Positions 1 to 12,202 of a stretch of 38,342 bases of DNA are shown here, piece by piece. How positions within the stretch are numbered: the stretch's first letter is position 1; every line of letters starts with the position of its first letter. Under the pieces are notes generated by a model that saw nothing but the letters and a program-made list of their open reading frames with translations, was not told the origin of the DNA and did not search any database. The stretch is taken from the NCBI GenBank assembly GCA_946537195.1, contig CAMNFE010000005.1, positions 1 through 38,342 of the forward strand, written 5' to 3'. This DNA is from an uncultured Candidatus Saccharibacteria bacterium. GTDB lineage: Bacteria > Patescibacteriota > Saccharimonadia > Saccharimonadales > Saccharimonadaceae. Position numbers and translations under genes: made by a program.

Positions 1-100
1 CCATAGCGCCAGGGAAATACCTGTTCCCATTCCGAACACAGAAGTCAAGCCTGGTAGCGGCGATTATACTGCTCTGCGGGAAACTAGCAAGATGCCGAAT
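1..100 (+). rRNA. rrf: 5S ribosomal RNA, 3' part (5' end outside window)
   Basis: Contains the 5S signature 'cctgttcccattccgaacacagaagtcaagc'; followed directly by a terminator hairpin. Exact 3' end estimated. Confidence 0.85.
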
Positions 101-819: not shown

Positions 820-2592
820 TTATTTTTTCAAATCTTTATTATATAAGCTACGGTAAATACTGCAATCGCGAAGCAGCTGGTGGTGTGTGCCACTGTCGAC
901 TAGTGCTCCCTCTTCGATAACGAAAATCTTATCACTATCGATAATAGTAGATAAACGGTGTGCAATTACAATAAGAGTATAGTCGCCTTTTAGCTCATTT
1001 ACGGCGTCCTGGATATCGGACTGAGTCTGATTATCAAGGGAGGAAGTTGCTTCATCGAGAAGAATGATCTTTGTTTTCATCAGTAAGGCACGGGCTATAG
1101 CGAGGCGCTGTTTCTGGCCGCCAGATAATATTACGCCGCCCTCACCAAGAATAGTATTGTATTTATTAGGAAGCGACATAATATAATCATCGATATGAGC
1201 CAATCTGCACGCTTCACGGATTTCGCTCATTTTTGCATTCGGTTTGGCGAGTAGCAGATTATCTTTTACGGAATAATTAAAAATGTATGGCTGCTGCGTC
1301 ACGACCGATATATTGTTGCGTAGTGAATTGCGACTATATTCACGAATCGGAATTCCATCAATCAATATTTGCCCACTATCATGGTCGTATAGACGCGTAA
1401 TCAAGTTTATGATGGTAGTTTTTCCAGAACCGCTTTTGCCTACAATCGCAACTTTTTCGTTTGCTGCTATATGCATATTAAGATCTTTTAGAACTTGTTT
1501 TTTGCCATATGCAAAACTAACATGCTGAAACTCAATATCGCCATCTAGTTTGTCGGTTTCTATCGTGCCGAAATGTTCTTTTTTATACGTTTTGTTGTCG
1601 AGTATTTCAAAAATACGATTACCGGACAGCTCTATTTTCTTATTGTTTTCAATTAGACGCGCAGCACCATAGAATAAATCTCGAATTTGATTGAGATAGT
1701 TATAAATAATAATAAATACCGGAATAGTTAATACGCTTTGCGTAAATAGAAAACAACCAAAGGCCAAAAAAACAAATTCCGATAAATAGTATGTTGCGGC
1801 TTCAAGTAGTTGGAAACGACGATCGATATCGCGAATTTCTTTTTCTCGGCTGGTCGTTTCTTTGATCTTTCGCCCCACGCTGCGCGCGATTGCTTCGCCG
1901 GCATTTAGGGTTTTAATGTCGCGTATGCCACGTACAATTTCAGTAGCCATGCCAGTACGTTCGTCGAGGTTTACATTTAGTATTCTTTGAACTTCGGTCA
2001 TGCGTTTAATGCGCCAGTTGCTTACGAAAAAGCAGATTATCGCAATAACGATTGACAGTACGAACATCTCGCGGCTCAATATGAACACGGTGACTAAAAT
2101 ACCGACATGCGAAATCAAATAAACTGTCCATATTGCATAATCATAGAAGACCGATGAAACTTTGTCTGTATCGGAGGTTAGACGCTCGATTATTTTTCCC
2201 GTACCAGTTTTGTCAATCTCGGATATTTCCAGTTTTAATGCTTCGCGCACTAATGCCTGTTGCATTCCATACAGCGTTCCATATTGGAGCTTATGAAGAT
2301 AATAAGAGCGCACATAAACCATAACTGTGTCTAAGAGATTTATTATCAATACGGCTAACGCAGTATAGATTACTTGATCGACGATACCGTCGGTAATTCT
2401 GAGAATAATTTGTGAAGTTAAAAGCGGCACGATGACGCCCGTAGCGACACCGATTAAGCAGCCAATGAAACTAGCAAAAAGAATTGAACGATGTTTATCG
2501 CAGAATTTAATAGATTTAAGTAAAATTTGCAGCGCACTGTATTGAACTGTGTGCCCGTGCGCTTTCTTGTTTTTTGCCCACCTCTTTGCCAT
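820..2592 (-). CDS. ABC transporter, permease-ATPase fusion (MsbA/MdlB-like exporter)
   Basis: N-terminal membrane domain plus Walker A GKSGSGKTT, signature LSGGQKQR, Walker B IILLDEATSSLD. Start moved to the MAKRW ATG, 6 nt after TATAAT. Confidence 0.9.
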   Translation of the reverse strand: MAKRWAKNKKAHGHTVQYSALQILLKSIKFCDKHRSILFASFIGCLIGVATGVIVPLLTSQIILRITDGIVDQVIYTALAVLIINLLDTVMVYVRSYYLHKLQYGTLYGMQQALVREALKLEISEIDKTGTGKIIERLTSDTDKVSSVFYDYAIWTVYLISHVGILVTVFILSREMFVLSIVIAIICFFVSNWRIKRMTEVQRILNVNLDERTGMATEIVRGIRDIKTLNAGEAIARSVGRKIKETTSREKEIRDIDRRFQLLEAATYYLSEFVFLAFGCFLFTQSVLTIPVFIIIYNYLNQIRDLFYGAARLIENNKKIELSGNRIFEILDNKTYKKEHFGTIETDKLDGDIEFQHVSFAYGKKQVLKDLNMHIAANEKVAIVGKSGSGKTTIINLITRLYDHDSGQILIDGIPIREYSRNSLRNNISVVTQQPYIFNYSVKDNLLLAKPNAKMSEIREACRLAHIDDYIMSLPNKYNTILGEGGVILSGGQKQRLAIARALLMKTKIILLDEATSSLDNQTQSDIQDAVNELKGDYTLIVIAHRLSTIIDSDKIFVIEEGALVDSGTHHQLLRDCSIYRSLYNKDLKK

Positions 2593-2607
2593 AAGTATAT
2601 TATACAA

Positions 2608-3135
2608 TTATTTTCTACTTATAGCGTCGCGGATCTCGTCTAAAATTTGCTTGTCTTTTAGATGCTCGACACTACGAAAGCGTGCTAGTGGCACTCCTGC
2701 TTCGTAGAACATGCGATTGATTTCTGTATCATGATCCATGTTGGCTTCGTAATCGTGCGAGGTGTCATCGAGTTCAATAACGCAAATAATTTCACCGCTC
2801 TTTTTGCTAATTAGGGCAAAGTCGACCTTTTTACCTTCAATATGCTTTAGTGCTAAACCCCAGTTTTGTCCTTTGACTTTGTGATTAATTATATCGGACA
2901 AGTGAACTTCTGGGATAATATACCAATAGCGTCCCACAAGACCGTTAAGGCGATGGAAGAATTTATTCTTGCGCTCTGTCATTAAGTATCTACGAGAATA
3001 ATAACGAAAATTAGACTTTTTTATTTTCGTAGGATGACTAGCGCGCTGTTTATCACTAAACATTTCTGGAATTTTTGACAGCGCAAAAAGGACCAATGCA
3101 ATACCAAAGGCCATCAAAATAGTCTTCAAATCCAT
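2608..3135 (-). CDS. DUF2726-type protein with N-terminal TM helix
   Basis: 'VDFALISKKSGEIICVIELDDTSHD...AGVPLARFRS' resembles DUF2726; one N-terminal hydrophobic helix. Confidence 0.7.
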   Translation of the reverse strand: MDLKTILMAFGIALVLFALSKIPEMFSDKQRASHPTKIKKSNFRYYSRRYLMTERKNKFFHRLNGLVGRYWYIIPEVHLSDIINHKVKGQNWGLALKHIEGKKVDFALISKKSGEIICVIELDDTSHDYEANMDHDTEINRMFYEAGVPLARFRSVEHLKDKQILDEIRDAISRK

Positions 3136-3152
3136 AGCTATATTATACCTGA

Positions 3153-3473
3153 TTATAAATCTTCTAAGAAGAACATGCTTCTCTTACGGCACTGGGTTTG
3201 TGGTAGTATTTCGTCGGTCGAAGAGTGATTGAAGTTCTTTTCACTGTCGCAACTATGGCCGTAGACGATCCAGTCGATAGCTAGAACCGCTGCAGCTACG
3301 ACTACAATGCAAATTGCTATTCCCATTACTACCCAAACTGCACTTTTTGTGCTTTTTTTGAAATGCTCTTTGCGGCTAGGCTTGGCTGGTTTTTTGATTG
3401 TAGTTTTGCGCGTACTTTTGATTGCGGCCTTTGCTACTCTTTGATTTTCTAAATCACTACGTTTTTTGCTCAT
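3153..3473 (-). CDS. Small single-TM hypothetical protein with basic N-terminus
   Basis: Lys-rich N-terminus then one TM helix; -10-like TATAGT just upstream. Confidence 0.5.
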   Translation of the reverse strand: MSKKRSDLENQRVAKAAIKSTRKTTIKKPAKPSRKEHFKKSTKSAVWVVMGIAICIVVVAAAVLAIDWIVYGHSCDSEKNFNHSSTDEILPQTQCRKRSMFFLEDL

Positions 3474-3482
3474 ATACCCCTA

Positions 3483-5855
3483 CTATATCTTTAGTTTTTC
3501 AGCTACTTTATATTTACTAAATATTTTCCAACCCCACTCGACTAGTTTTGTCATCCAGCGCAAAATTATTACTGAAGCTAACGCGAGCGCGATACAAATT
3601 ACCCAGCTCTGCATTGTCATTCGTGTCATACCGAAGAAGGCAGGGATGAGGATGTACGACAAAGCGAGGCCGGCCACACAAACGCCTATTACAAATGCTT
3701 TATAGCCATCTATCGGCTTCGAAGCGCGGGCGACCATCATCATGCCAACTACCATTAACAAGAAGGTGCAACTTGTCGATACATCGACCTGGCTAATGTC
3801 GAAGATGCTTCCAATAATCACCATCAACATTACAACTATCATGTCCGTCAAGCCACCAGGTGCCGCACGTTTTAGAATATTGCTAACGAAATTGCCTTTA
3901 ATTAAATCGTGGTTTGGCGCCTGCGAAAGCAAGAAGCCCGGAATACCAATTGTAAATGCGCTAATCAAAGAGATTTGCGCCGGGATTAGCGGATAAGCAA
4001 TCGTGAAAATAATTGCAATCATACTCGTGATAAATGAGAAAACGTTTTTGACGAGGAATAGGCTACCGGATCGTTCAAGGTTATTAACGACGCGACGGCC
4101 TTCCGCAACAACTTCTGGCATACGTGAAAAATCTGATTCAAGTAGTACGACTTGTGCGGCTTGTACTGCTGCGTCACTACCGCTCGCCATCGCAACTGAA
4201 CAGTCCGCATCGCGAAGCGCTAAAACGTCGTTCACGCCATCGCCAGTCATCGCGACCGTCTTGCCGTCTTCCTGCATAGCCTTCACGAACTTACATTTTT
4301 GCTCCGGCGTGACGCGACCAAACACTGTATATTTGCGCATCGCATCGGCAATCTTTTCATCCGTGTCTAATGTGGATGCGTCAACATAATGTTCAGCACC
4401 TTTTATGCTTGCTTTCTTTGCAACTTCAGAAACAGTACGCGGGTTATCGCCGGAAATCACCTTAATTTCTACGCCTTGTGCGGCAAAGAATTTAAAGGTT
4501 TCCGTTGCGCTTTCGCGGATTGGGTTAGTGATTAAAACTAAAGCAAGTGGAGTGATTTCTGCGGTTAATTTACGTCCGTCGGCGGAATCCTCATATTTGC
4601 TAAATAGCAATACGCGGTAACCTTTTCCGCCGTAATCTTCAATCATGTCTTTATATTTCTTATAATCATCGCCTAATACAAATTCAGGTGCGCCCAGTAC
4701 GTAACTTTCTTTCTCAAAATTAACGCCACTATATTTAAATTCGCTCGAAAAACCAGACACGCTCGTAACTTTACGATCGGTCGGTTTCGTGAAGTATTCC
4801 TTCATCGCTTTCATTGTGATATTGTCTGCAGCTTGCGCACTGGCAAAATCGCTCAATAGTCCAAACAAATCTTTTTCGCTATGTTTTTTATCTAGCGAAA
4901 CGACACTGTCGACGCTCATTGTATTGTCTGTGATAGTGCCGGTTTTATCGACACAAAGCACATTAACACGCGCTAAGGTTTCAATGCTTTTCATGTCGTG
5001 TAAAAGCACTTTTTTCTGTGCTAACTTCATTGCGCTCACCGCCAAAGCGATACTAGCGAGCAAAAATAGACCTTCTGGGATCATGCCGATCACGGATGCG
5101 ACGGCCGACTGGACACTGCGCTGAATGCCGACGCCGTTCAAGAAATAGTTTTGAATAAACATGATGGCGCCAATTGGAATAATAGCAATACCAGCAATGG
5201 TGACGATTTTGTTTAATGAACGAATGATTTCGGATTGTTCTTTAGTTTTTACTTTCTTTGCCTGTAAGGTGAGTTGAGAAATATATGACTCTGCGCCTAC
5301 TTTGGTTAATTGAGCGTAACACTCGCCAGAAACAATGAAGCTTCCGCTCATCAGCTCATCGCCAGGAGTTTTGTGGATTTCGTCCGCCTCTCCCGTAAGT
5401 AGTGATTCGTTTACGGCCGCCTCGCCGAACAGAACTTCTGCATCAGCTGGAATTTGGTTTCCTGCACGAAATACTACTACATCGTTTTGCACTAAACGTT
5501 CGGCATTAATAGTTTTTTCTTGACCTTCGCGAATTACGTTTGCTGTTGGCGCATTTAACATTGTAAGCTTGTCGAGAACGGTTTTTGCGCGCATTTCCTG
5601 AAAAATACCAATCAACGCGTTTGCGATAATAATTGGCATAAAGGTAATATCGCGATACGATCGCACGGCAATTAACAAAATCGCGATAATCAAAAATACA
5701 AAGTTGAAATAAGTGAATACGTTACTATATACAATTTCTTTTACGGTCTTGCTCGGCGGTTTTACGGCAGTATTTACAAGACCCTCGCGGCGCATCGCGT
5801 GGACTTGCTTCTTTGTCAGACCTTTTTGATAGTTAACTTTTATTTTTTTACTCAC
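3483..5855 (-). CDS. P-type cation-transporting ATPase (CtpE/YfgQ-like, inferred)
   Basis: TGEAD, DKTGTITDN phosphorylation motif, TGDGVND hinge; GTG start 6 nt after TATAAT. Confidence 0.85.
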   Translation of the reverse strand: MSKKIKVNYQKGLTKKQVHAMRREGLVNTAVKPPSKTVKEIVYSNVFTYFNFVFLIIAILLIAVRSYRDITFMPIIIANALIGIFQEMRAKTVLDKLTMLNAPTANVIREGQEKTINAERLVQNDVVVFRAGNQIPADAEVLFGEAAVNESLLTGEADEIHKTPGDELMSGSFIVSGECYAQLTKVGAESYISQLTLQAKKVKTKEQSEIIRSLNKIVTIAGIAIIPIGAIMFIQNYFLNGVGIQRSVQSAVASVIGMIPEGLFLLASIALAVSAMKLAQKKVLLHDMKSIETLARVNVLCVDKTGTITDNTMSVDSVVSLDKKHSEKDLFGLLSDFASAQAADNITMKAMKEYFTKPTDRKVTSVSGFSSEFKYSGVNFEKESYVLGAPEFVLGDDYKKYKDMIEDYGGKGYRVLLFSKYEDSADGRKLTAEITPLALVLITNPIRESATETFKFFAAQGVEIKVISGDNPRTVSEVAKKASIKGAEHYVDASTLDTDEKIADAMRKYTVFGRVTPEQKCKFVKAMQEDGKTVAMTGDGVNDVLALRDADCSVAMASGSDAAVQAAQVVLLESDFSRMPEVVAEGRRVVNNLERSGSLFLVKNVFSFITSMIAIIFTIAYPLIPAQISLISAFTIGIPGFLLSQAPNHDLIKGNFVSNILKRAAPGGLTDMIVVMLMVIIGSIFDISQVDVSTSCTFLLMVVGMMMVARASKPIDGYKAFVIGVCVAGLALSYILIPAFFGMTRMTMQSWVICIALALASVIILRWMTKLVEWGWKIFSKYKVAEKLKI

Positions 5856-5899
5856 TCCTTAATTATATCTCAAAAATTCGTTATATAATAATAAGCACA

Positions 5900-8527
5900 A
5901 TGACTAATTATTACGAGAGCACTATCAAGGAGATAGAGCAAGACTTAAAGACGGGCCCACGCGGCTTAAGCGCTTCCGAAGTCACCTCTCGTCACCAGAA
6001 ATATGGCGCCAATACGCTACCGAAAAAGAAAAAAGACAGTATTGCCAAAATATTTTTGAGCGAATTTGCCGATCCGATTGTTTTATTGCTGCTCGTTGCA
6101 ATCGCGGTCTCATTTTTTGTTGGCGAGATTGTCGATGCGGTTGCAATTATCCTTATCGTACTCGTCGATGCGATTATCGGCACGTATCAAGAGAATAAAG
6201 CTAACAATACCGCCGATGCGTTATCGAAATTAGTCAAAGACGAAGTGCGCGTAATTCGTGACGGCAAAGAAGTTTCGATTAATGTTGAAGATTTAACGAT
6301 TGGTGATCTTGTCGTTCTTGAGTCCGGCGACAAAATTGGTGCCGATATGCGTTTAGTTGAGGTGCATAATTTTACAGTCGATGAATCGATTCTGACTGGC
6401 GAAAGCGTTCAAGTTATTAAATCTACCGAACCTGTTTTAAAAAAGAAAGTTTCAATTTCCGATCAGGAAAATATGATATTCTCTGGCACGGCAGTTGTTT
6501 CTGGGCGCGCTAAGGCTTATGTGGTTGAGATTGGTCTCGATACGGAGTTAGGTAAAATTGCCGATACGCTTGCAACAACTGAAGACGAAAAATCGCCACT
6601 AACTATTAGGGTAGAGAAGTTTAGTAAACAAATTAGTTGTATGGTAATTGCAGTTGCAATTATTATTGCTATTTTACTAATTGCAAAGCATACGCCTGGG
6701 CATGAAATTTTACTTACCGTTATTGCCTTTGCCGTTTCTGCGATGCCAGAAGGTCTACCGCTCGCTCTCACGATGGCGCTTACGATTGCAGCTAATAAAA
6801 TGTCTAAAAAGAACGTGATTGTGCGTAAACTTAATGCGGCAGAATCTCTCGGTAGCTGTACGGTCATCGCATCAGATAAAACCGGGACTTTGACTGTTAA
6901 CCAGCAGACCGCAAAACGCATTTTATTGCCGAATGGTGAAGAATATCAGATTTCTGGAACCGGCTATGAAACAAAAGGCAAAGTGACGGGCAATATCTTA
7001 AAATACGCCGAAGAAATTGGGCTTTATGGCGCGTTAAATAATGAAGCGGACATTTCTGGTAAAACTCCGATTGGTGATTCGATTGATATAGCTTTTCTGG
7101 TTTTAGCCGAAAAGCTTGGCGTAAAAACTAGAGGCATTAAGATACTTGAGCGAATACCGTATGAGTCGGAGAATAAATATTCGGCAGTTTTCTATGAAAA
7201 AGACGACAAAGTTTATTGCACAATTAAAGGTTCGCTCGAAGTAGTTGAAAAATTCTGCAGCAAGGCCAATTTTGCAACTACTAAAAACACTAAGAAGCTG
7301 AAACAGCAAAACGAATCGTTAGCTAAGGATGGCTATCGTGTAATTGCTCTAGCGAATGGGGAAGTGAAACGTGGCGAAAAATACTCGATCGATAAAATAA
7401 ATAATCTAACTTTTATGGGCATGGTTGGATTCATTGACCCGATTCGTAAAGAAGCCATCACTTCTATTCAAGAATGCCACGAAGCGGGCATAAAAGTCTT
7501 AATGATTACTGGCGACCATCCACTTACGGCGTTCTCAATCTCCAAGGACCTTAAACTTGCCGATAATGAAAAGCAAGTCGCAACTGGCGATGACGTTGAA
7601 GATGCATTAAGGGGCACAAAACGTAGTTTTGACGATTTTATAGCTAGTAAAATTGTTTTTGCTCGCGTTACGCCTTTACAAAAGCTCAAGATCGTCGAAT
7701 CGCTCAAGCGTCAGGGTGAATTCGTAGCCGTTACTGGTGATGGCGTAAATGATGCTCCGGCTCTTAAGGTTGCCAATATTGGTATCGCCATGGGCTCCGG
7801 AACCGATATTGCGCGCGAAACGGCCGATATGATTATTATTGACGATAATTTTAAGTCTATCGTAGCTGGCGTAAAAGAAGGTCGCGTTGCTTTTGCGAAT
7901 ATCCGCAAAATCATTTATTTCCTAATATCATGCGGCCTGGCCGAAGCGGCGTTTTTCTGTCTCGCTATAGCCTGCAATATGCCAATGCCACTCGTTGCAG
8001 TGCAGCTGCTCTGGCTGAATGTGGTTACGGACGGTATTCAGGATTTGGCGCTTAGTTTTGAAACGGCTGAGCCTAGCATTCTCAAAGAAAAGCCGCGTAG
8101 TCCCAAAGATTCGATCTTTGATAAACGCTTAGTGCGCGAAATTGCAATCTCTGCTGCTATTATTACGACCGTTGTTTTTGTATTCTATTGGTATCTTATC
8201 AATAAACTTGGCTTTGATGTTACGACTGCGCGTGGGTATATTATGTGTCTCATGGTGTTTATTCAGAATATTCACGTATTCAATTGTCGCAGCGAAAGTC
8301 GTTCGGCATTTTCGGTTCCGCTTAGAAATAACTGGTTTATTGCGGCTGGTATTTTCTGCACCATCCTACTTCAAATAATCGTCATGCAAGTGCCGTTATT
8401 CTCGCGTTTCCTCCAGACTGTCTCGATCCCAGCTTGGGCGATTTGTTGGCTATTCATTACGGCCAGCTCTGTCCTAATCTTGATGGAGCTATACAAAAAC
8501 ATCGCCTCGCGTTTTGAAAAGAAGTAA
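5900..8527 (+). CDS. Calcium-type (P2) cation-translocating P-type ATPase
   Basis: LTGES, PEGLPLALT, DKTGTLTVNQ, TGDGVNDAPALK, C-terminal cation ATPase domain. Confidence 0.9.
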   Translation: MTNYYESTIKEIEQDLKTGPRGLSASEVTSRHQKYGANTLPKKKKDSIAKIFLSEFADPIVLLLLVAIAVSFFVGEIVDAVAIILIVLVDAIIGTYQENKANNTADALSKLVKDEVRVIRDGKEVSINVEDLTIGDLVVLESGDKIGADMRLVEVHNFTVDESILTGESVQVIKSTEPVLKKKVSISDQENMIFSGTAVVSGRAKAYVVEIGLDTELGKIADTLATTEDEKSPLTIRVEKFSKQISCMVIAVAIIIAILLIAKHTPGHEILLTVIAFAVSAMPEGLPLALTMALTIAANKMSKKNVIVRKLNAAESLGSCTVIASDKTGTLTVNQQTAKRILLPNGEEYQISGTGYETKGKVTGNILKYAEEIGLYGALNNEADISGKTPIGDSIDIAFLVLAEKLGVKTRGIKILERIPYESENKYSAVFYEKDDKVYCTIKGSLEVVEKFCSKANFATTKNTKKLKQQNESLAKDGYRVIALANGEVKRGEKYSIDKINNLTFMGMVGFIDPIRKEAITSIQECHEAGIKVLMITGDHPLTAFSISKDLKLADNEKQVATGDDVEDALRGTKRSFDDFIASKIVFARVTPLQKLKIVESLKRQGEFVAVTGDGVNDAPALKVANIGIAMGSGTDIARETADMIIIDDNFKSIVAGVKEGRVAFANIRKIIYFLISCGLAEAAFFCLAIACNMPMPLVAVQLLWLNVVTDGIQDLALSFETAEPSILKEKPRSPKDSIFDKRLVREIAISAAIITTVVFVFYWYLINKLGFDVTTARGYIMCLMVFIQNIHVFNCRSESRSAFSVPLRNNWFIAAGIFCTILLQIIVMQVPLFSRFLQTVSIPAWAICWLFITASSVLILMELYKNIASRFEKK

Positions 8528-8932: not shown

Positions 8933-10135
8933 ATGGCAGAATTACGATGTCCAAAATGTGGCAAAACTTTTAAAGTCGACGATGATAGTTATGCAGATAT
9001 TCTAAATCAAGTACGCACGCACGAATTTAACGATGAAGTCGAAAAACAGGTTGCGGCCGCACTCGAAAAGGCTGATTCTGCAAACGAACTGGAGCTCGAA
9101 AAGGCCAAAAACGCTCAAACCAAAAAGATTGCCGAGCTAGAGGCTAAAATCAAACAGGCTGAAACCGATAAGGAACTAGCAATTACCAAGGCTTTGGCGC
9201 CAGTCGAAAAAGAGCTTGAAACCGCAAAAGCTGATTTGAAGACTAAGACCTCCGAGGCTAAACTTCGCGAAGAATCGCTTACGGCGCAAGTTAAACTCCG
9301 CGAGGCGGCCCTCAAAACTCAATACGAGGGTGCCTTAAAGCTCAAGGATGAAGAAATTGACCGCCTGAAAGATCTTAAATCCAAACTTAGTACTAAAATG
9401 GTTGGCGAAACGCTTGAGCAACATTGTCAAACCGAATTTAATCGTCTGCGTGCCACCGCTTTTAAAAATGCATATTTTGAAAAGGATAACGATGCGCGTA
9501 CTGGTAGTAAGGGCGATTATATTTATCGCGAAATGGACGAGCAGGGCAATGAAATTATCTCCATTATGTTTGAGATGAAAAACGAAAACGAAACTACCGC
9601 CACCAAGCATAAAAATGAGGACTTCTTTAAAGAACTCGATAAGGATCGCAAGGAAAAGGATTGTGAGTATGCTGTCCTGGTAACTTTGCTCGAGGCTGAT
9701 TCTGAATTGTATAACACGGGCATCGTTGATGTTAGTTATAAGTACGACAAAATGTATGTTATTCGCCCTCAATTCTTCATTCCGATGATTACATTACTGC
9801 GCAATGCTGCACTTAACTCGCTAAAATACAAGCAAGAATTAGCCGTGGTACGCAATCAGAATATCGATATTACGCATTTTGAAGAAAACATGGAAAATTT
9901 CAAGATGGCCTTTGCGCGCAATTATGAATTAGCTAGTAAAAAATTCAGTACTGCCATCGAGGAAATTGACAAGACTATTGCGCATTTGCAAAAGACAAAA
10001 GAAGCGCTACTCAGTTCCGAGAATAATCTACGTCTTGCCAACAATAAAGCTGAAGACCTTACAATTAAACGCCTTACTCGTGGTAATCCGACTATGGCGG
10101 AAAAATTTGCGGAGCTAAAAAAAGAGCGCTCGTAA
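8933..10135 (+). CDS. DUF2130 domain protein (coiled coil, N-terminal CxxC)
   Basis: CPKCGKTF N-terminus, long coiled coil, '[42 protein letters not shown]' typical of DUF2130. Confidence 0.85.
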
Positions 10136-10158
10136 ATATATTGAGCGCTCCTGGTTGA

Positions 10159-10524
10159 CTAGTCACGAATGCTCCTGATCTTACGATCAAGATCTGCTGC
10201 CGCCTTATAAAATGCTCTCTTTATGAGCAGTCCGCGCAGAATGCGGAGCGATACTAAGAAGAAGGCTATAGTGAAAGCCGTTCTTATAACAGGTGTCTCT
10301 GCCCAGTATGCTACTCCGCACAGGAATAATGCGCAAGAGTGCATAGTGATTTCTTTTAGTGATTTATCTTCGAGAAAGTACCCAGAGAGTACTATTATCG
10401 CCACTAAGGCCGCCGCATCATGAAACGACGGTTTCAGTAGTGACATCGCCAGTAAAGCGATTGACAGAACCACTAAAGACATCTGAGCGTATGCGCACGT
10501 TAATGCAATATTTGTTTTCCTCAT
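10159..10524 (-). CDS. Small multi-TM membrane protein (MRKT group, copy 1)
   Basis: MRKTNIALT start, SD aggagg, own promoter and structured leader; several TM segments. Confidence 0.7.
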   Translation of the reverse strand: MRKTNIALTCAYAQMSLVVLSIALLAMSLLKPSFHDAAALVAIIVLSGYFLEDKSLKEITMHSCALFLCGVAYWAETPVIRTAFTIAFFLVSLRILRGLLIKRAFYKAAADLDRKIRSIRD

Positions 10525-10693
10525 AACTTACCTCCTGAGAAAAACGGCCGCCCATACTTGGGCTGGCATCAATGGGTCGAGGCTCATTCAAGCCTAGTTT
10601 TAGTTCCCCTATACTAAAACTAGACTCGAATCTTTCTGAGAAAAACTTAACTAGTCATTTTTGAAGGGTGCTATAAGATAATAAATACCTTAT
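10525..10693 (-). ncRNA. Structured 5' leader L1 of the MRKT gene 10159-10524
   Basis: ATTCGAG/CTTGAAT + CTAGTTTTAGT/ACTAAAACTAG hairpin with ATAGGGGA loop; terminator-like hairpin 10547-10567; U-tract; SD. Shared with L2 and L3. Confidence 0.7.
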
Positions 10694-10699
10694 GCTTTA

Positions 10700-10728
10700 A
10701 TTATACCACAAAACATTAAAAAAGTCAA
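10700..10728 (-). promoter_or_regulatory. Promoter of the L1 transcript
   Basis: Minus strand TTGACT-17 nt-TATAAT, extended TGG. Confidence 0.8.
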
Positions 10729-10784
10729 TATAGATATTAATAAATTGTGCGAAATGAACTAATGTTTGAGCTATGAGACTTCAT

Positions 10785-10807
10785 TAAAAAGCCGGCATTA
10801 TGCCGGC
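10785..10807 (-). terminator. Terminator of CDS 10830-11144
   Basis: gccggcat/atgccggc palindrome with ttttt on the minus strand. Confidence 0.75.
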
Positions 10808-10829
10808 GTAAGATGGTATTTTGGAAAAT

Positions 10830-11144
10830 CTAACTGTCCATAATTCGATACAGCACCCATCCGGTGGCTAGGGGAACGCTTGCTAGAAATGCGACTATCC
10901 AGAAGCCGTGCATATTGAAGGCGTTTTCCCAAATCAGGGCCTGAATTAGGACTACTAGCAATTCGCTCGTAAAACATAAATCTTTTTCGCCATTAGCGTT
11001 AGTCGTCAACATGCAAACGAATAACAATAATGGAAACAATATCACCGTCGTGATAGTTTTGAGCGGTGAAATGTTCGCAAAAAGCGTCACGAGCAATGCT
11101 ATCTGAAAAATCAGCACCAAAATACTCTCGAAAGTTTTTCTCAT
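10830..11144 (-). CDS. Small multi-TM membrane protein (MRKT group, copy 2)
   Basis: MRKTFESIL start, SD ggaggtgg, own promoter and leader. Confidence 0.7.
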   Translation of the reverse strand: MRKTFESILVLIFQIALLVTLFANISPLKTITTVILFPLLLFVCMLTTNANGEKDLCFTSELLVVLIQALIWENAFNMHGFWIVAFLASVPLATGWVLYRIMDS

Positions 11145-11276
11145 AACCCCACCTCCAAGAGAAAAACATTAAGGCGGAAATGCGATTCGAGCTAAAATCT
11201 GACTCCCCTGTGCGGGATTTCGTCTCGAATATTGCGCATCTCCTCTAACTTAAATGAACTAGTAAATCTTTACTCT
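11145..11276 (-). ncRNA. Structured 5' leader L2 of the MRKT gene 10830-11144
   Basis: ATTCGAG/CTCGAAT stem (11224-11230 with 11185-11191), loop ACAGGGGAG, GTTTTTCTC before SD. Confidence 0.6.
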
Positions 11277-11282
11277 GTTTCT

Positions 11283-11311
11283 ATTATGTCACGTTGGGCG
11301 GAATTAGTCAA
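11283..11311 (-). promoter_or_regulatory. Promoter of the L2 transcript
   Basis: Minus strand TTGACT-17 nt-CATAAT. Confidence 0.7.
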
Positions 11312-11322
11312 ATGGCTTACGC

Positions 11323-11352
11323 TTGAAAAATTAACATAAGCAGTGTTAGAAT
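11323..11352 (+). promoter_or_regulatory. Promoter of CDS 11361-11603
   Basis: TTGAAA-18 nt-TAGAAT; predicted TSS at or near the ATG. Confidence 0.5.
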
Positions 11353-11360
11353 TTACCCAG

Positions 11361-11603
11361 ATGTATAACAATGAGAAAACGCCGGGCTTCGTAGGGAAAG
11401 TATTGCATACTTTTTTCATCCTTTTCGTCATTGTTATGATAGGGATTCTGGGCCTTACTATTGTTAAGCATATTGACGGTGACACTTTGACCGTAACTTC
11501 CGGAACGACTGAAAGTGAAGAATGTGGCGATGAACAAGCTCAGGAGGCTGCTCGCAAAGCCGGTCTTAAAGTGCCCGTAAAGTGTCAAAAGAAATCTGAA
11601 TAA
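11361..11603 (+). CDS. Small single-TM hypothetical protein
   Basis: MYNNEKTPGFVGK then TM helix; -10 TAGAAT 8 nt before ATG; terminator after stop. Confidence 0.55.
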   Translation: MYNNEKTPGFVGKVLHTFFILFVIVMIGILGLTIVKHIDGDTLTVTSGTTESEECGDEQAQEAARKAGLKVPVKCQKKSE

Positions 11604-11627
11604 AAGGCACCCATGCGGGTGCCTTAG
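11600..11627. terminator. Hairpin between convergent genes (possibly bidirectional terminator)
   Basis: ggcaccc-atgc-gggtgcc; the T-tract (ttttatt) is on the minus-strand side. Confidence 0.55.
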
Positions 11628-11635
11628 TCGACTAG

Positions 11636-12019
11636 TTACAAGTCGCTACTTTTTTCTTGATTCTCGGTCTTTTGAGAGTACCTCGTATAAAGCGTAAGAG
11701 CTCCCGCAAACGGCCACCAGATTAATACCCAAAAAGCTGCAGCTCTCCAGTCTTTGGAGTGAGTGACCATTATTAGTATTATCAATGATAGTCGAAACAG
11801 TCCTCGCCTTCTGTCGAGCTCAAGCCGGCTGTCTGCGGAGTAGCATCCAAAAAGAGCATATGTGGTCAGCATTAGCAGAGAATGTGTAATTGATACAATC
11901 ATTGCTCTACTATTAAACCTGGAACAATAAGCCTCATACGTTACGCACGCCATTGAGAACCAGGTTATTAGCCAGAGCAATACTGCTGCTATACTACGGT
12001 TGCGTTTTGTTTTTCTCAT
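11636..12019 (-). CDS. Small multi-TM membrane protein (MRKT group, copy 3)
   Basis: MRKTKRNRS start, SD ggaggg, own promoter and leader. Confidence 0.7.
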   Translation of the reverse strand: MRKTKRNRSIAAVLLWLITWFSMACVTYEAYCSRFNSRAMIVSITHSLLMLTTYALFGCYSADSRLELDRRRGLFRLSLIILIMVTHSKDWRAAAFWVLIWWPFAGALTLYTRYSQKTENQEKSSDL

Positions 12020-12167
12020 TTAATCCCTCCATTCTGAGAAAAAACTGCTGCCTAAACTTAGGCTAGCATTGACGCGTAGGGCTCTTTCGAGCCGGGTTTT
12101 CGCTCCCCTCTGCAAAAACCAGGCTCGAATATAACTAATAAAAAAGATCGCCAATTCAAAGATTGGT
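12020..12167 (-). ncRNA. Structured 5' leader L3 of the MRKT gene 11636-12019
   Basis: TTCGAGCC/GGCTCGAA + GGTTTTTGC/GCGAAAACC hairpin with AGAGGGGA loop; bulged terminator-like hairpin 12046-12068 + U6. Confidence 0.7.
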
Positions 12168-12173
12168 CTGCTT

Positions 12174-12202
12174 ATTATAAAATATAAGCTGAAGCAATGC
12201 AA
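12174..12202 (-). promoter_or_regulatory. Promoter of the L3 transcript
   Basis: Minus strand TTGCAT-17 nt-TATAAT. Confidence 0.65.

Follow-up and report, generated by a model that had tools for sequence, protein, structure and literature searches.

A covarying 5′ leader RNA, new to Rfam, precedes unrelated small-protein genes in a genus of Candidatus Saccharibacteria

Introduction

The mRNAs of ompA in E. coli and aprE in B. subtilis are stabilized by 5′ stem-loops together with ribosome binding, according to work cited in PMC7509114; neither leader needs a ligand. Standby leaders of the tisB type, found on mRNAs for small membrane toxins, have a structured 5′ part and a single-stranded stretch (PMC7708055). 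In 5′ UTRs regulated by CsrA, a hairpin upstream of the ribosome-binding site (RBS) carries a GGA-containing apical loop, and the riboswitches collected in Rfam are likewise conserved structured leaders. The literature on RNA-based regulation in Patescibacteria seems to be sparse: a review on these bacteria treats riboswitches only as tools (PMC11665869), and the open-access papers searched describe neither a structured RNA for Patescibacteria nor the leader considered here.

The window, that is, the whole analyzed stretch of 38,342 nucleotides from an uncultured Candidatus Saccharibacteria bacterium, had been predicted to contain a new structured, cis-acting leader in front of three small membrane-protein genes whose products all begin with MRKT. 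This core claim holds, since no Rfam family matches the leader, homologues are numerous and covariation is strong; the leader is new to Rfam and broader than the three genes of the window. While its existence is firm, its mechanism is something that we infer.

Architecture of the leader

The central element is a hairpin, P1, of which three copies lie on the minus strand of the window in one common register of 19 stem positions and an 8-nt loop, ANAGGGGA. The stem has no internal loop or junction, and its 19 bp leave just the 8-nt loop. All 19 pairs form in unit 1 (L1; 10586-10631, loop ATAGGGGA) and 17 of the 19 in unit 3 (L3; 12085-12130, loop AGAGGGGA). For the inner stem of unit 2 (L2; 11185-11230, loop ACAGGGGA), only a short AAATC/GATTT pairing had originally been seen; the alignment corrects this, as the common register runs through the entire stem of L2, with 15 of 19 pairs. 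Relative to dinucleotide shuffles, the folding z-scores of the leaders are -5.3 (L1), -2.3 (L2) and -4.2 (L3).

The full leader has a fixed order: promoter, a hairpin at the 5′ end (P0), a GNWCNUU motif, P1 and, usually, a strong Shine-Dalgarno (SD) sequence. Each gene of the window is predicted to form its own, monocistronic transcription unit with a sigma-70-type promoter of 17-nt spacing, all features being on the minus strand. In unit 1, the promoter TTGACT-17-TATAAT, with TG before the -10 box and 11/12 matches in the promoter scan (10700-10728), precedes P0 (10670-10695; GCATAAGGTA with TATCTTATAGC) and the motif-like GCACCCTTCA; a further hairpin, P2 (10547-10567; GCCaGCCC/GGGCGGC, with a T-run after it), covaries with P2 of unit 3, and a terminator consists of the inverted repeat GAGCGCTC and a T-run (10114-10150). 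Unit 2 comprises a promoter from the same scan (11283-11311; TTGACT-17-CATAAT with TG extension), P0 AGTAAAGATTTACT and motif GTTCATTTA (11251-11274), and a terminator of a GCCGGC inverted repeat and T-run (10784-10807); only a weak hairpin is present at the P2 position, the terminator-like P2 being confined to units 1 and 3. In unit 3, the promoter TTGCAT-17-TATAAT (12174-12202) was recognized from the sequence and scores below the cut-off of the promoter scan; it is accompanied by P0 CCAATCTTTGAATTGG and motif GATCTTT (12143-12166), by P2 (12047-12067; GCTaGCCTA/TAGGCAGC, T-run next) and by the terminator AAGGCACCC/GGGTGCCTT with its T-run (11601-11625).

The same layout recurs across the genus. 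Nearly all leaders have a promoter upstream, in which the spacer measures 17 nt and the -10 box is usually of the TGN extended type. P0 is situated within ~10 nt of the predicted transcription start; its mean folding z-score is -2.0 (26 leaders), and the stem reaches p <= 0.05 in 15 of 34 leaders. Directly 3′ of P0, the GNWCNUU motif occurs in 33 of 40 leaders, versus 2.5 in shuffled sequences, and the 3′ end of P1 is separated from the start codon by 34-97 nt. The AGGGGA loop is constant in most P1 copies. Some leaders, however, contain extended variants with a longer helix, several of which carry GGGU or other loops (for example, AGGGU, UGGGU and AGGC); this variability makes a strictly AGGGGA-specific reader less likely.

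Covariation and distribution

Along with the original prediction, a comparison with Rfam, a covariance model built from the three leaders and searched in related genomes, and a test of covariation in a larger alignment had been proposed. One P1 alignment comprises 21 sequences, and a larger model comprises 30, including variants with an extended inner stem. In the alignment of 21, 95.7% of the P1 cells are paired, and 17 of the 19 pairs exhibit changes on both sides. The covariation score is 0.756 as opposed to 0.304 in shuffled alignments, none of 500 shuffles reaches it, and it drops to <=0.17 when the partner is slid by one column; the shuffle control removes shared ancestry only partly, but the effect is far above the stated bias of the tool. 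The alignment of 30 sequences agrees, with both-sided changes again at 17 of 19 pairs. Among the wobble cells, 48 are G·U and 3 are A·C. In a DNA palindrome, these two are equivalent between the strands, and the asymmetry therefore identifies the transcribed RNA as the selected molecule. The P1 leader is thus a real structured cis-acting RNA with compensatory changes on the RNA strand.

Rfam 15 contains no family that matches the leaders of the window above the gathering cut-offs, and a permissive E-value yielded chance-level matches only; 20 related loci were likewise free of family matches at their leaders. Rfam matches near two loci (L022 and L026) are located outside the leader and below the cut-offs. 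The model of the three window copies (R1) matches in 19 of 45 genomes of the genus, among them the window's own, the others with E-values of 1e-9 to 2e-5, which are rough owing to short calibration. With the 30-sequence model, the leader is present in 34 of the 45 genomes, and ~319 genomes from other genera of the family gave no P1 match; nor did the 21-sequence model find one in the family sample outside the genus or in 155 other genera of the order, in all cases under strict filters that may miss weak matches. As far as sampled, the leader therefore appears to be genus-specific. All genomes compared are assemblies, and those with such loci are, by their named records, from sheep gut and other Candidatus Saccharibacteria MAGs. 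One candidate (L004 in G021) was excluded from the counts as a chance match: it pairs around a start codon, and no P1 was seen upstream. A viral or phage origin was considered and rejected, as viral contigs contained no relative of M3 and no P1 pattern and the 2.1-kb region gave no phage match.

Genes behind the leader

The three window genes, all on the minus strand, encode membrane proteins that start with MRKT: M1 (10159-10524; 121 aa, no Pfam match), M2 (10830-11144; 104 aa) and M3 (11636-12019; 127 aa). That they share little beyond these residues had been stated at the outset, and mutual BLASTP bears this out, with no meaningful similarity outside MRKT. Elsewhere in the genus, weak matches of <=17 bits only were obtained for M1-M3 and were not accepted as homologues. 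On the plus strand, facing the interval that separates units 2 and 3, an 86-aa open frame (11343-11603) with one TM-like stretch and no Pfam family is convergent with M3; the window begins within a 5S rRNA gene (1-100, plus strand), cut by the window start.

GUUUUUCUC, present in all three units, can pair with the ATGAGRAAAAC start region; the SD lies in the loop of the predicted helix, P3. In unit 1 (10514-10545), GTTTTTCTC pairs with GAGGAAAAC, placing SD GGAGG in the loop and the start codon at the stem; in units 2 (11134-11167; GTTTTTCTC/GAGAAAAAC) and 3 (12009-12045; GTTTTTTCTC/GAGAAAAAC), the arms likewise enclose SD and start codon. Folding of the longer context predicts P3 in units 1 and 3; the P3 of unit 2 appears only when this segment is folded by itself and is missing from the MFE structure of the longer context. 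Because the arms of P3 have stayed constant while their surroundings and the stretch enclosed by them have diverged, RNA pairing explains MRKT better than protein homology does; pairing with the start region is probably the better reason for the shared residues, which, with three copies compared, may alternatively have been inherited from a duplicated leader. TTTTTCTCA occurs a second time in unit 1 (10636-10645), immediately 5′ of P1; according to the predicted fold of the whole leader, this copy could rival the P3 arm as a partner of the start region.

The leader does precede all three MRKT genes, as had been proposed, but it is not specific to them. In most genomes, it is found in front of X, a fast-evolving, soluble and mostly acidic protein of 98-199 aa without a Pfam match. 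The usual X locus follows argS (named from conserved sequence), and X is convergent with Y, a family of ~200 aa for which Pfam, PADLOC and the PDB gave no match; the window's genome, too, contains an argS-leader-X-Y locus, on a different contig. In six genomes, including that of the window, leaders at unlinked loci precede small membrane proteins, and the MRKT trio is another such set. The further leaders of this kind are in G136, G220, G199, G144 and G171. One two-TM family seems to account for four of the five proteins (L124-L126 by BLASTP, L123 by inspection); two of the genes adjoin groES-groEL. The leader of G171 matches with E = 0.048 only; promoter, P0, P1, SD and membrane gene are nevertheless all in place.

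The X locus varies in its surroundings. In four genomes (G205 at L104, G068 at L106, G109 and G189), the leader-X-Y module is positioned away from argS; the gene upstream of it probably encodes trigger factor and the one downstream a sugar transferase, so that the module has moved as a unit. At L118 (G217:C22:4000-12017), a gene for a 1735-aa surface-protein-like product (1736-6943) is inserted between X and Y, which are neighbours elsewhere. L117 (G159:C12:1-4500) contains a second, paralogous Y gene (1131-1808), which adjoins a P-type ATPase gene related to the one at 3483-5855 of the window and a small gene resembling window 3153-3473.

Possible modes of action

A common, hitherto undescribed RNA signal seems to govern a small group of genes in these bacteria. 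With a probability of roughly 0.5, the leader may be viewed as a genus-specific 5′-UTR RNA that marks separately transcribed mRNAs for common post-transcriptional control and is recognized in trans. Messages would begin with P0, as a protected 5′ end, and the GNWCNUU motif, and P1 would present its G-rich apical loop upstream of the start codon to a common trans-acting factor, which might be a protein that binds RNA or else the 30S subunit, docked at the SD-like AGGGG loop. Together, factor and protected end would set message stability and/or translation; in the three window genes, the extra helix P3 would also pair the start codon. The structure, selection at the RNA level, the promoter-leader-gene layout and reuse before unrelated genes are observed features, to which a trans-acting factor and an effect on stability or translation would have to be added. 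A shared post-transcriptional signal predicts precisely this reuse before X, M1-M3 and the unlinked membrane set, and recognition in trans is favoured because a protected 5′ end, motif and G-rich loop are what otherwise unlike genes have in common. CsrA, considered as the reader, was not found in the 21 genomes searched, where controls were positive. The 30S subunit could dock at the AGGGG loop itself, much as at an SD. Somewhat short of even odds, the leader may represent a new, genus-confined class of regulatory RNA that defines a post-transcriptional regulon of fast-evolving small soluble and membrane proteins with an undescribed RNA-binding reader.

Occlusion of the SD was tried as a general mechanism and rejected: in X leaders, which lack P3, the accessibility of SD and start codon is 0.54/0.62, comparable to that of 26 window genes used as controls (0.48/0.49). 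A docking or stability role is accordingly favoured over a simple on/off switch at the RBS. In its plainest form, a stability role would dispense with a dedicated factor, P0 and P1 passively shielding strongly transcribed messages from decay at the 5′ end. The 5′-end hairpin, the strong promoter, the usually strong SD and the precedent of ompA and aprE are all in keeping with this second-ranked, yet rather improbable, explanation; it needs, however, neither the AGGGGA loop kept by most copies nor the GNWCNUU motif.

A regulator specific to the locus, with protein X or Y binding P1, has a low probability. Leader and Y do co-occur (33 genomes with both, 10 with neither and 2 exceptions; Fisher p = 4e-8, phylogeny ignored), but G171 has a leader and no Y, so that Y is not an essential factor, and in G208 (L116, G208:C24, 2947-3609) Y is directly convergent with argS in the absence of X and leader. 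Most X proteins are strongly acidic (median pI 4.5), those of the Y family are not basic (median pI 6.4), the M genes are far from Y, and the structure model of Y is too poor for use (mean pLDDT 38.5).

Long, nearly perfect helices such as P1 are, in length, typical of RNase III substrates. Cleavage of the 19-bp stem, giving a processed mRNA or a leader-derived small RNA, is slightly less probable still, as RNase III does not require the conserved 8-nt loop.

The original prediction had also raised a ligand sensor, and a conserved structured leader before several small-protein genes may indeed call a small-molecule riboswitch to mind. This part of the prediction fares poorly: P1 offers an 8-nt loop only and, having no internal loop or junction able to hold a ligand, is unlikely to form a small-molecule pocket; the SD is mostly accessible; complementarity between the P1 loop and downstream sequence is not in excess (mean p 0.64), which leaves a loop pseudoknot unsupported; and no terminator or antiterminator is common to the leaders. 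A riboswitch is hence quite unlikely.

Even less credit can be given to an attenuator in the window's genes, in which P2 and UUUUU would form a terminator and an alternative fold would prevent termination. P2 with its T-run is terminator-like in units 1 and 3, and 13 of 27 X leaders contain, downstream, a copy of the P1 5′ arm with which the 3′ arm could pair instead (p <= 0.1). This pairing was rejected as a general switch because the signal is missing in the window's leaders and two others; moreover, the hairpin of unit 2 is weak, and no U-run was seen in X leaders. A DNA-level element (recombination site, cruciform or protein-bound inverted repeat), as the long inverted repeats and the differing chromosomal places of the module between genomes might suggest, is largely refuted by the strand asymmetry of the wobble pairs and by a constant orientation towards the gene, always behind a promoter.

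What distinguishes the leader, whichever its reader, is that it covaries strongly, is simply built and precedes a defined set of genes. Should it be the signal of a regulon, it would provide a direct handle on co-controlled small orphan proteins of host-dependent bacteria.

Comparison with known systems

The leader lacks tested defining features of the riboswitch, CsrA-bound and tisB-type classes. With Rfam riboswitches, it has the conserved structure in common, but not a family match, an aptamer-like junction or a common expression platform; neither SD occlusion nor a terminator is coupled to all members, as judged from the X leaders and units 1-3. Like CsrA-type 5′ UTRs, it has a hairpin with GGA in its apical loop ahead of the RBS; it differs from them in that P1 is clear of the SD and the loops of extended variants deviate, in addition to the apparent lack of CsrA in the 21 genomes. 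The window's units do resemble tisB-type leaders (PMC7708055) in a structured 5′ part, a single-stranded stretch and, ahead of a small membrane protein, a start region that is predicted to be paired, in unit 2 only with P3 folded by itself; in contrast to these, the P1 loop gives no pseudoknot signal, the paired start region is limited to the window's three genes, and toxin activity, for which tisB mRNAs code, is no known feature of the genes here.

By analogy, the leader would work most like the stabilizing leaders of ompA and aprE. As in these, a hairpin is located at or near the 5′ end of the mRNA, the SD is strong and no ligand is needed; P0 provides the 5′-terminal hairpin of such stabilizers at predicted start sites. 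The leaders of ompA and aprE each belong to one gene, whereas the hairpin described here, with its covariation and conserved loop, recurs in front of genes unrelated to one another.
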